64,000 nt of DNA from an uncultured Methylophaga sp. GTDB taxonomy: Bacteria > Pseudomonadota > Gammaproteobacteria > GCF-002020875. A program made the translations under genes and the position numbers. The stretch lies in the NCBI GenBank assembly GCA_937877715.1, contig CALEHW010000042.1, positions 1 to 64,000 of the forward strand, written 5' to 3'. Position 1 is the first letter of the stretch. Every line of letters starts with the position of its first letter. The notes below the pieces were generated by a model. The model worked only from the letters and a program-made list of their open reading frames with translations, searched no databases and was not told the DNA's origin. Positions 33,006 through 37,486 of the stretch are shown piece by piece.

Positions 33006-33854
33006 CTACTCCCCGACGAGATCCAGGCTATTGAATACTCGCAGTGTTGCTGCCGCCTGGTTCATGGTGTAGAAGTGAAGCCCCGGGGCACCGGCACTCA
33101 ACAGATCCTGGCATAGACGTGTGGTGACCTCCAGTCCAAACGCACGCAGAGAGTCGGTGTCATCACGATAGGCGATGAGCCGTTCCCTGATCCAGCGAGG
33201 AATCTCTGCCCCACACATCTCGGAGAAGCGGGCCAGATTTGTATAGTTGGTGATCGGCATAATGCCGGGGACGATCGGTAGGTCGATCCCCATTGCGGCA
33301 CAATCCTCACCAAAGCGGAGGTAGCCATCGATGTTGTAGAAATATTGGGTAATTGCACTATCTGCACCGGCCTCAACCTTGCGCTTGAAGTTCTGCAGAT
33401 CGGTAAAGGCGTCGGGAGCCTGGGGGTGAAACTCCGGATAGGCGGCCACCTCAATATGGAAATGGTCACCGCTCTCCTCGCGGATAAATGAGACCAGTTC
33501 ATTGGCATAGCGAAAATCCCCAGATGCACCCATGCCAGAAGGCATATCGCCTCGCAGGGCAACGATACGTTGGACCCCCTTTTCCTGGTATCCCTGCAGA
33601 ATCGCGGTAATACCCTCTCGAGTTGCACCAATACAGGAGAGGTGGGGGGCTGCATTAACTCCCTGTTGCTGGATATCCATCACAGCCTCATATGTCCCCT
33701 CCTGGGTGCTACCACCCGCACCAAAGGTGACTGAGGCATAGGCAGGTTTTATGGCGCTGAATAGCTCCTGTTGAGCGGCATGCAGCTTCTCTTTTCCTGC
33801 CTCTGTTTTTGGGGGGAAGAATTCCAGACTAAATTGTGGAGCTGGCTGGGTCAT
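33006..33854 (-). CDS. metF: Methylenetetrahydrofolate reductase
   Basis: SLEFFPPKTEAG, SVTFGAGGSTQ, PHLSCIGATREGI, GLHFYTMNQAAAT. Confidence 0.95.
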   Translation of the reverse strand: MTQPAPQFSLEFFPPKTEAGKEKLHAAQQELFSAIKPAYASVTFGAGGSTQEGTYEAVMDIQQQGVNAAPHLSCIGATREGITAILQGYQEKGVQRIVALRGDMPSGMGASGDFRYANELVSFIREESGDHFHIEVAAYPEFHPQAPDAFTDLQNFKRKVEAGADSAITQYFYNIDGYLRFGEDCAAMGIDLPIVPGIMPITNYTNLARFSEMCGAEIPRWIRERLIAYRDDTDSLRAFGLEVTTRLCQDLLSAGAPGLHFYTMNQAAATLRVFNSLDLVGE

Positions 33855-34011: not shown

Positions 34012-35421
34012 CTAGTATCTGTAGTGCTCTGGTTTATAAGGGCCTTCTACCGGCACACTGATATAGTCAGCCTGGGTCTGGCTCAGAGTGGTGAGATTGA
34101 CCCCGATCTTCTCAAGGTGGTGGCGTGCGACCTCCTCATCCAGATGTTTCGGCAGGGTATATACCTCATTTTTATACTCACCCTTCTGGTTGAATAGTTC
34201 GATCTGTGCCAAGGTCTGGTTGGTAAAGGAGTTGGACATAACAAAACTTGGGTGGCCGGTGGCACAACCAAGGTTAACCAATCGACCCTCAGCCAGGAGA
34301 ATGATCTTGTTGCCACTTGGCAGGGTGATGTGGTCAACCTGTGGTTTGATGTTCTCCCATTCATATTTCTTCATATTTACAACATCGATCTCATTGTCGA
34401 AGTGACCAATGTTGCAAACAATTGTTTCATGTTTCATCTGCACCATATGGTCGTGGGTGATGACATTGAAGTTACCTGTTGCAGTTACAAAGATGTCGCC
34501 CTGTGAGGCAGCGTCATCCATGGTCACCACGCGGTATCCCTCCATTGCCGCCTGTAGTGCGCAGATAGGATCAATCTCAGTAACCCAGACAGTTGCGCCC
34601 AGACCACGTAGTGACTGGGCGCACCCCTTACCAACATCACCGTAGCCGAGAACAATGGCAATCTTTCCGGCGATCATTACATCTGTCGCACGCTTGATTC
34701 CATCTACCAGTGATTCACGACAGCCATAGAGGTTGTCGAATTTTGATTTTGTAACAGAGTCATTAACGTTGATTGCAGGGAAGGGGAGTGAGCCATCTTC
34801 CTGCATCTGATAGAGACGATGAACACCGGTGGTAGTCTCCTCGGTAACACCCTGAATGTTTTTCAGGATGTTGGAGTACCAGTTTGGGGATTCGCTCAAT
34901 TTATTCTTGATGGCTGCGTAGAGAACCTCCTCTTCCTCGCTGGTTGGGCTGTCCAGTACGGAGATATCACTCTCTGCCTTGGAGCCGAGAATAATAAGCA
35001 GGGTGGCATCACCACCGTCATCAAGAATCATGTTCGGGGTGCCGCCATCGGACCACTCCATGATCTTATGGCTGTAGTCCCAGTAATTCTCCAAAGACTC
35101 ACCCTTGTAGGCAAAGACAGGAATTCCCTGGTCGGCAATGGCGGCCGCAGCATGATCTTGTGTCGAATAAATATTGCACGATGCCCAGCGCACCTCGGCA
35201 CCCAGTGCAGTCAGGGTCTCGATCAGTGCCGCGGTCTGGATGGTCATATGTAGAGAGCCTGCGATACGTGCCCCCTTTAGAGGTTTGTCCTCACCATATT
35301 TTTCGCGCAGTGCCATCAGTCCAGGCATTTCACTTTCTGCGATACGAAGCTCCTTGTGGCCCCAATCCTTGAGGCTCATGTCTGCAATGACATAGTTATC
35401 TGTGGTCTCGATATTGCTCAT
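34012..35421 (-). CDS. ahcY: Adenosylhomocysteinase
   Basis: [35 protein letters not shown]-terminal KPEHYRY. Confidence 0.97.
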
Positions 35422-35479
35422 TTTCTTTCCTCTATTTCATAGTCAATCGATCGAGAGCGCAGTTACGGTATCTACAGCT

Positions 35480-35534
35480 ATCTCAGTCCGGGCCTGGCGG
35501 GGGTGCCGTCGCAGCGCTCCCCGGGCTGAGGTTT
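35480..35534 (-). promoter_or_regulatory. SAH riboswitch upstream of ahcY
   Basis: Minus-strand CTCAGCCCGGGGAGCGCTGCGACGGCACCCCCGCCAGGCCCGGACTGAG shows the SAH riboswitch core (GGAGCGCTGCGAC...GCCAGGC) closed by a CTCAG/CTGAG stem. Confidence 0.9.
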
Positions 35535-35552
35535 TTTGGTTTACAAAATCAC

Positions 35553-36725
35553 CTAAACTCCGGCGGCATCACGTAGTGCATCAGCCTTGTCGGTACATTC
35601 CCAGGTGAACTCTTCCTCTGTTCTGCCGAAGTGCCCATAGGCGGCTGTCTTCTGATAGATGGGACGCAGCAGATCAAGCATCTCGACAATGCCGCGTGGC
35701 TTGAGGTTGAAGTGCTCAAGTACCAGTGCCTCAATTTTGGAATCGTCAATTACCCCAGTACCAAAGGTCTCCACAGAGACCGAGGTGGGGTCAGCAACAC
35801 CGATTGCATAGGAGATCTGAATCTCACAACGCTCAGCGAGGCCGGCGGCAACAATATTCTTGGCAACATAACGGCCTGCATAGGCAGCAGATCGGTCAAC
35901 CTTGGATGGATCCTTGCCAGAGAAGGCGCCACCACCATGGCGAGCCATGCCACCATATGTGTCGACAATAATCTTTCTTCCGGTAAGACCACAGTCTCCA
36001 ACCGGACCACCAATGACAAAGTTGCCAGTAGGGTTGATATGGTATTTGGTGTTGGCATCAAGCCACTCCTCGGGAAGTACTGGACGGATAATCTCTTCTC
36101 GTACAGCTTCTTGCAGATCCTTGTAGGCGATATCCGGGTCGTGCTGTGTAGAGAGAACTACCGCATCAATACCAACCGGCTTGCCATCACTATAGCGGAA
36201 GGTAACCTGGCTCTTGGCATCTGGGCGCAGCCATGGAAGCACACCGTTTTTGCGTAGCTCTGCCTGACGCTCTACCAAGCGGTGGGAGTAGGTGATGGGA
36301 GCGGGCATCAGCACATCGGTCTCGTTGGAGGCGTAGCCAAACATCAGCCCCTGGTCACCGGCGCCCTGCTCATGGCTATCAGACTCATCAACCCCCATGG
36401 CGATATCAGAGGACTGTTTACCGATTGCCGAGAGCACCGCACAGCTTTTGCCATCGAAACCAACATCAGCGGAGTTGTAACCGATATCACACACTACCTT
36501 GCGTACTAATTCCTCGGTATCAACCCAGGCGTTGGTGGTGATCTCTCCAGCCAGAATGACCATACCAGTCTTGACCATGGTCTCGCAGGCAACGCGTGAA
36601 TTTTTATCCTCTTTCAGCAGTGCATCCAGTACCGTATCAGAGATTTGGTCTGCCAGTTTATCGGGGTGTCCCTCGGATACTGATTCTGAGGTAAAAAGCG
36701 TTGTATTGTCTGTGTTGTTACTCAT
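35553..36725 (-). CDS. metK: S-adenosylmethionine synthetase
   Basis: [51 protein letters not shown]. Confidence 0.97.
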
Positions 36726-36743
36726 TGCGGCCTATATCTCCAT

Positions 36744-36779
36744 AAAAAAACCCGCTCAACCAGTTGGCGTGCGGGTTTT
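36744..36779 (-). terminator. Rho-independent terminator in the metK leader
   Basis: Minus-strand AAAACCCGC-acgccaactggttga-GCGGGTTTTTTT, located between the riboswitch-like element and the metK ATG. Confidence 0.85.
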
Positions 36780-36794
36780 AGAATTCTGACCTGC

Positions 36795-36850
36795 ATCGCT
36801 TTAGCCGTATTTTTATAGCGCTCGCAAGCTGAGCTCAAATCAGCGCTATC
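36795..36850 (-). promoter_or_regulatory. SAM-II-like (SAM_alpha) riboswitch upstream of metK
   Basis: Minus-strand GATAGCGCTGATTTGAGCTCAGCTTGCGAGCGCTATAAAAATACGGCTAAAGCG. TAGCGCT/AGCGCTA P1 stem, GATTTG loop, TTGC, and 3' GCTAAA match the SAM-II pattern. Confidence 0.75.
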
Positions 36851-36928
36851 TACGATTCTCTATGATGAGTGGTTTTTCTGTCAAGTTTTTTTGTAGAATT
36901 GCAAAATAATGAAAGGAGATTACAAGTT

Positions 36929-37486
36929 ATGGTAAGTCTGGAGACCCCTGTTTGTGAGTTCGGGAACGCGGCACCCGGTTTTGAGCTGCCTGATGTTTAT
37001 GGTGCTGTGTGGACACAGCAGAGCCTGAAGGGGGAGAGGGGGTTGCTGGTGATGTTCATCTGTAACCACTGTCCATATGTCAAAGCGATAAGGGAGAGGC
37101 TGGTTCGGGATGCCAAGGAGTTGAAGATGATGGGGATTAATAGCGTTGCTATTATGTCCAACGATCCTGCCCAATACGAGGAAGACTCTCCGGAAAATAT
37201 GAGAAGAGTTGCTGAGGAGTTTGGCTTTCCATTTCCATATCTGTTGGATGAGACTCAGGAGGTTGCCAAGGCATTTGGCGCAGTTTGCACCCCGGATTTT
37301 TTTGGTTATAACGTGGACCTGACTCTTCAGTACCGTGGTCGATTGGATGAGAGTCGAAAAGAGACCTCTCCTGATGGTGTGCGCCGGGATCTTTTTGAGG
37401 CAATGGGAGAGGTTGCAAGGAGCGGGGCCGGGCCCGCAGATCAGATTCCAAGCATGGGATGTTCCATCAAGTGGAAAGATGAGTAA
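36929..37486 (+). CDS. Thioredoxin/AhpC-TSA-like family protein
   Basis: FELPDVYGAVWTQQSLKGERGLLVMFICNHCPYVKAI; start MVSLET chosen because it follows AAGGAGAT. Confidence 0.85.
   Translation: MVSLETPVCEFGNAAPGFELPDVYGAVWTQQSLKGERGLLVMFICNHCPYVKAIRERLVRDAKELKMMGINSVAIMSNDPAQYEEDSPENMRRVAEEFGFPFPYLLDETQEVAKAFGAVCTPDFFGYNVDLTLQYRGRLDESRKETSPDGVRRDLFEAMGEVARSGAGPADQIPSMGCSIKWKDE

Follow-up and report, generated by a model that had tools for sequence, protein, structure and literature searches.

A SAM-II RNA and a candidate terminator switch upstream of metK, with a SAH riboswitch before ahcY, in a gammaproteobacterial genus

The metK locus and its SAM-II aptamer

The window, meaning the whole stretch of 64,000 nucleotides that was analysed, belongs to a 1.89-Mb assembly that is 99.8% complete. 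On its minus strand, a promoter, a SAM-II aptamer, a terminator, metK, a SAH riboswitch, ahcY and metF follow one another in this order:

36855-36884, minus strand: putative metK promoter, a consensus match only (consensus scan, 10 of 12 matches), with -35 box TTGACA at 36884-36879, an 18-nt spacer and a weak -10 box GAGAAT at 36860-36855
36797-36848, minus strand: SAM-II aptamer (Rfam match at 36780-36856; RF00521, 36.7 bits; independent model R2, 70.3 bits; 6/6 genus genomes)
36744-36779, minus strand: intrinsic terminator, with AAAACCCGC at 36779-36771, a loop, GCGGGUUUU at 36755-36747 and a U tract to 36744 (fold, shuffles, genus conservation)
35553-36725, minus strand: metK, methionine adenosyltransferase, 390 amino acids (TIGR01034, 622 bits)
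35448-35528, minus strand: SAH riboswitch between metK and ahcY (RF01057, 46.6 bits, cut-off 37)
34012-35421, minus strand: ahcY, adenosylhomocysteinase (TIGR00936, 622 bits)
33006-33854, minus strand: metF, methylenetetrahydrofolate reductase, the operon gene after ahcY (TIGR00676, 335 bits)

By MetK (90% identity), the closest named relatives are uncultivated gammaproteobacterial MAGs, one of them labelled Thiotrichales. Our genus comparison set consists of six genomes of one genus, the sole genomes sampled from the order. The aptamer, terminator, promoter box and gene order are observed here, as is their conservation. In an alignment of the six leaders the aptamer is almost invariant, continuing through GCGAUGCAGG, and its flanks diverge, namely the promoter spacer, the terminator loop and the stretch ahead of metK; the TTGACA box is unchanged in all six. 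The metK transcript is expected to start a few nucleotides before the P1 stem of the aptamer. A probable metK ribosome-binding site, GGAG at 36741-36738, lies past the terminator and ~60 nucleotides from the pseudoknot strand. Divergently from metK, a gene at 36929-37486 (plus strand) encodes a thioredoxin-fold, peroxiredoxin-like product that scores below curated cut-offs; beyond it lie transketolase and then genes resembling GAPDH, PGK and pyruvate kinase by translation.

Judged by its letters and its conserved pairing, the leader element is a complete SAM-II aptamer of the standard type, and it presumably binds SAM. Its parts are as follows:

36842-36848, minus strand: P1 5' arm, UAGCGCU (7 bp with 36816-36822)
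36835-36841, minus strand: L1, GAUUUGA, the binding triplex's third strand (matching 2QWY G8, U10, U11 and U12, by sequence)
36824-36827, minus strand: P2b 5' strand, UUGC (2QWY U20, U21, G22 and C23, by sequence; invariant in 23/23 aligned)
36816-36822, minus strand: P1 3' arm, AGCGCUA (pairs with the P1 5' arm; covariation)
36800-36805, minus strand: P2b 3' strand, GCUAAA (2QWY G42-A47, by sequence; invariant in 23/23 aligned)

The minus-strand sequence quoted in the initial annotation lies where it had been placed, with the 7-bp P1, GAUUUGA, UUGC and GCUAAA all present. Every pocket letter checked against crystal structure 2QWY, whose triple positions are described in PMC3764141, is found (GAUUU, UUGC and GCUAA, corresponding to G8, U10-U12, U20-C23 and G42-A46), including the P2b letters for the triples G8-G42-C23, U11-A45-U21 and U12-A46-U20. 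An alignment of 23 sequences has both-sided changes at four of six P1 pairs, and its paired cells amount to 93.8%, compared with 30-59% for slid structures. The covariation score for the whole structure is 0.152, versus 0.068 when shuffled; the P2b columns do not vary and are therefore neutral on covariation. Most SAM-II members have a P2a extension of about five pairs (PMC6061858); here P2a could form only two (G-C and C-G), each of them unpaired in 7 of the 23 sequences. In all six genus genomes the aptamer precedes metK, a gene of methionine/SAM metabolism.

With the Rfam SAM_alpha model (RF00521), cmscan reports 36.7 bits over model positions 1-79 (E 1.2e-4 in the window), just above the cut-off of 36 and marginal by itself; the runner-up site in the 1.89-Mb genome has 15.1 bits. 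Model R2, a covariance model for which 21 SAM-II sequences were taken from outside the genus, assigns the aptamer 70.3 bits (E 1.4e-16 per genome) and has exactly one match in every one of the six genomes. This held-out model, together with genus-wide conservation, rules out a chance match, and the SAM-II assignment made initially holds. Given the R2 score, we attribute the low Rfam score to the alphaproteobacterial training of RF00521. The SAM-II long loop model (RF01726) reached 23.6 bits in a local scan, under its cut-off of 44, and in the same 231-nucleotide scan SAM-V, SAM-VI, SAM/SAH and SAM-III had no Rfam match to E 10.

Terminator and predicted antiterminator

The hairpin AAAACCCGC...GCGGGUUUUUUU, which had been proposed as a terminator ahead of the metK ATG, bears out that proposal. 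Its folding energy is ~-15.7 kcal/mol, dinucleotide shuffles fold less stably in each of the six genus genomes (p 0.001-0.016), and the arms of the hairpin vary in step across the genus (CCCGC/GCGGG and GCCCGCUC/GAGCUGGC in the six-leader alignment). A simple terminator scan passed over it, apparently owing to the stem and loop shapes that the scan allows. When the full terminator sequence is included in folding, every one of the six genomes has the terminator in its minimum-energy fold. RNAfold predictions for transcripts ended just ahead of the terminator 3' arm instead give a different hairpin, which in this window consists of two strands:

36789-36807, minus strand: predicted 5' strand of the antiterminator, CGGCUA-AA-GCG-A-UGC-A-GGU, which shares positions with the SAM-binding strand (RNAfold, 6/6 genomes)
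36757-36776, minus strand: predicted 3' strand of the antiterminator, ACC-C-GCA-CGC...UGGUUG, which shares positions with the 5' arm and the loop of the terminator (RNAfold)

One kind of hairpin is predicted in all six genomes, CGGCUA...GCG-UGC-GG(U) with (A)CC-GC-CGC...UGGUUG or UAGUUG, with the outer helix shifted in G004. Ends placed a few bases earlier or later yield other folds in G002, G003 and G004, such as UUGCGAGCG with CGCUCGUAAG in G003. With shuffled downstream sequence as the control, the hairpin reaches p 0.07-0.20 in individual genomes and a combined Fisher p of 0.008 in the genus with kinship ignored, which suggests that it is weakly above chance; a test of the duplex only, with an incomplete 3' strand, was not significant (p 0.12-0.54). 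An antiterminator built as in other leaders, from GCUAAAGC and GCUUUAGC or GCUUUGGC, was considered and rejected for this genus, as CTTTAG or TTTAGC occurs in none of the six genomes in the 80 nucleotides past the aptamer. We lean slightly towards the exact antiterminator as drawn. Because it uses the P2b strand GGCUA and covers the terminator 5' arm, the bound pseudoknot, the predicted antiterminator and the terminator would be mutually exclusive, and this suggests the arrangement that an OFF switch requires.

We therefore favour a SAM-sensing terminator switch upstream of metK, with a probability of roughly 85%, and the transcriptional OFF-switch design first suggested for this leader is supported, its antiterminator step being modelled. 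The regulatory outcome would be repression of metK transcription when SAM is abundant, probably extending over the whole metK-ahcY-metF operon. RNA polymerase would start just ahead of P1. If SAM is scarce, the free 3' strand CGGCUAAAGCGAUGCAGGU could pair with ACCCGC-CGC...UGGUUG, covering the terminator 5' arm and loop and permitting read-through into metK. If SAM is plentiful, it would bind the H-type pseudoknot, in which UUGC pairs with GCUAAA and GAUUU serves as third strand, and so withdraw the GGCUA strand from the antiterminator; the terminator could then form and stop transcription ahead of the metK start codon. Terminators after SAM-II RNAs and a start site directly before P1 have been described (PMC1273637), and terminated small RNAs that rise in a SAM-dependent manner are reported for Sinorhizobium (S.) meliloti (PMC9373788).

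The aptamer might instead bind SAM and act mainly on translation or RNA stability, downstream of a largely constitutive terminator that mostly yields a small leader RNA. S. meliloti metA offers a parallel, having a strong terminator after its SAM-II aptamer and no predictable SAM-II-driven antiterminator (PMC9373788), and the modelled antiterminator statistics given above are weak. However, a metK GGAG that lies past the terminator and so far from the pseudoknot strand cannot sit in P2, and in all six genomes the same antiterminator is predicted when the folded sequence ends ahead of the terminator 3' arm; we regard this explanation as improbable. Still less probable is a SAM-II-like aptamer whose ligand specificity has changed. 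Spermidine-binding variants of SAM aptamers are known (PMC10853860), and the marginal Rfam score might be read in this way, but the equivalents of G8, U10-U12, U20-C23 and G42-A46 are all retained, a gamma-trained model gives 70 bits, and the product of the controlled gene makes SAM.

The strand itself could be questioned, since RF02424 (Bp2_287, "Burkholderia sRNA") matches positions 36745-36873 of the plus strand with 23.7 bits (cmscan), as if the element were a small RNA transcribed in the opposite direction. That score is far under the family's cut-off of 70 bits, and the TTGACA box and the met genes agree with the minus strand. Moreover, when RF02424 is searched across the class, each of its ten top-scoring matches has a SAM-II core opposite to it, which suggests that the family as such is misoriented. 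An opposite-strand small RNA is thus extremely improbable here, and RF02424 very probably represents a SAM-II leader on the wrong strand, which would point to a strand error in this Rfam family. Several of the RF02424 loci (L219-L228) lie before metZ or metK.

The SAH riboswitch between metK and ahcY

The SAH riboswitch noted initially downstream of the leader is confirmed by its RF01057 score, which is above the cut-off. It begins 24 nucleotides past the metK stop codon, ~1.25 kb downstream of the SAM-II element, and ends 27 nucleotides ahead of ahcY. A consensus scan found no sigma-70-like promoter near it on its strand. The ahcY gene is therefore probably on the same SAM-gated transcript, so that the SAM-II and SAH switches would act in series; with a 24-nucleotide gap and no promoter-like site, SAM-triggered termination should silence ahcY-metF as well. 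The SAH riboswitch would then add SAH-dependent control of ahcY-metF in read-through transcripts only.

The initial annotation had envisaged metK being repressed while ahcY is induced. Such a circuit would have two independent outputs, SAM repressing metK and SAH inducing ahcY through a separate promoter. Both riboswitches do score over their Rfam cut-offs, and a promoter-like TTGAAA-16-TATAAT was seen by eye ahead of the SAH element in genomes G312 and G085, which makes independent control plausible in those families. In this window, by contrast, the SAH element follows the metK stop after just 24 nucleotides, and a scan of 35300-37000 on the same strand lists the metK promoter alone; opposite, independent control of the two genes in this organism is accordingly unlikely.

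A SAM-II RNA before metK combined with a SAH riboswitch between metK and ahcY occurs in five of the six genus genomes; four other families add seven more genomes with this combination. We tentatively propose, at a little under even odds, a serial two-sensor operon in several gammaproteobacterial families, in which the SAM-II terminator gates metK-ahcY-metF and the SAH riboswitch sets the output of ahcY-metF. If so, the operon would answer to both SAM and SAH, and in this genus, where an internal promoter is lacking, the SAH response would be conditional on low SAM. The recurrent order SAM-II, metK, SAH, ahcY, metF offers a natural system in which to study how SAM and SAH are read within one transcript. 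The sixth genus genome, G005, has a metK-ahcY gap of 58 nucleotides in which, unlike in its five relatives, no SAH riboswitch was found.

SAH riboswitches of family RF01057 before ahcY-metF are a known context (PMC4239095), but here the element lies within an operon that begins with metK and its SAM-II leader. Leyn et al. 2014 found no SAH riboswitch controlling metK (PMC4239095). Tandem SAM-II/SAM-II and SAM-II/SAM-V leaders likewise place several SAM-pathway riboswitches on one transcript (PMC9481103), whereas the two aptamers in the window sense different ligands and have metK between them; the same review lists SAH among the riboswitch classes without tandem arrangements. SAM-related RNA control of metK is also represented by SAM/SAH (RF01727), SAM-Chlorobi and SAM-III RNAs, and SAM-Chlorobi RNAs lie upstream of operons that contain metK and ahcY (PMC2864571). 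These are unrelated RNA families, and they are absent from both the full-window and the local cmscan.

SAM-II RNAs across Gammaproteobacteria

Gammaproteobacteria as defined by GTDB include the former beta-proteobacteria. Among 369 class-wide genomes, which were classified by GTDB and some of which may be betas, RF00521 has a match at E <= 1e-3 in 120 and over the Rfam cut-off in 32, and a gamma-trained model has a match in 186. SAM-II is thus common in gammaproteobacteria and mostly missed by the alpha-trained RF00521 (32 versus 186 of 369), a census that refutes the earlier suggestion that the host background is unusual. Sporadic gammaproteobacterial examples were already reported by Barrick and Breaker 2007 (PMC2258182), while Leyn et al. 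2014 placed SAM_alpha in Rhizobiales and Rhodobacterales only, with metY as core target, and also described a beta-proteobacterial "metXZ element" (PMC4239095).

Of 110 leaders examined, 77 precede metZ and 14 precede metK; 19 are left unassigned, and among these are genes that resemble metF, metN and metX (translation, by eye). The metK-linked RNAs comprise those of the six genus genomes and eight in five other families (f81, f54, f132, f44 and f122), with two Thiomicrorhabdus and Marinomonas phaeophyticola as named examples. Within the six genus genomes metK is the sole SAM-II target, with none before metZ, which in five of them comes after a PurF-like gene (by eye). SAM-II ahead of metK was not seen in the portion of the literature that was searched. 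These RNAs would add SAM synthetase to the gammaproteobacterial genes under SAM-II control.

Gammaproteobacterial metZ leaders share with this RNA the aptamer consensus GCGCC-GAUUUGA...CAGCUUGC-GGGCGC...GCUAAAGC, usually with a terminator. In the metZ group (57 leaders), the match between GCUAAAGC and its complement in the terminator 5' arm (GCUUUAGC or GCUUUGGC) is far above shuffles (median p 0.058; Fisher p 5e-25, relatedness uncorrected). The predicted partner of the pocket strand is thus the GCUUUAGC/GCUUUGGC terminator arm in metZ leaders, whereas in this genus it would be ACCCGC-CGC...UGGUUG. On such complementarity, the switching logic is much clearer in other leaders of the class than in this genus.

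The SAM-II RNAs of S. meliloti metZ and A. tumefaciens metA likewise have P1 and an H-type pseudoknot with the GAUUU/UUGC/GCUAAA core, a promoter just upstream, a terminator downstream and a methionine-SAM gene under control (PMC1273637, PMC9373788). Unlike them, the RNA described here targets metK rather than metA, metX, metY or metZ, has a gammaproteobacterial flavour with a poor score in the alpha-trained Rfam model, and appears to use another antiterminator partner. An ordinary terminator-type SAM-II RNA is well supported here; its target is less common, and its expression platform is particular to the lineage.

Other leaders in the class vary in architecture. Three SAM-II RNAs before metK, those of L055, L090 (Thiomicrorhabdus) and L143 (G058), have no long U tract directly after them; their aptamer GTACGG could pair with a CCGTAC further downstream, and CGAGG with CCTCG, possibly reflecting a different expression platform. 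Tandem SAM-II arrangements are already known (PMC9481103), and in leaders L103, L180-L183 (in G250) and L199 a SAM-II RNA with terminator has a second SAM-II-like element, of more divergent sequence, immediately after it. The 5.1-Mb genome G250 has ten model matches, several of them before genes that are not obviously related to methionine.
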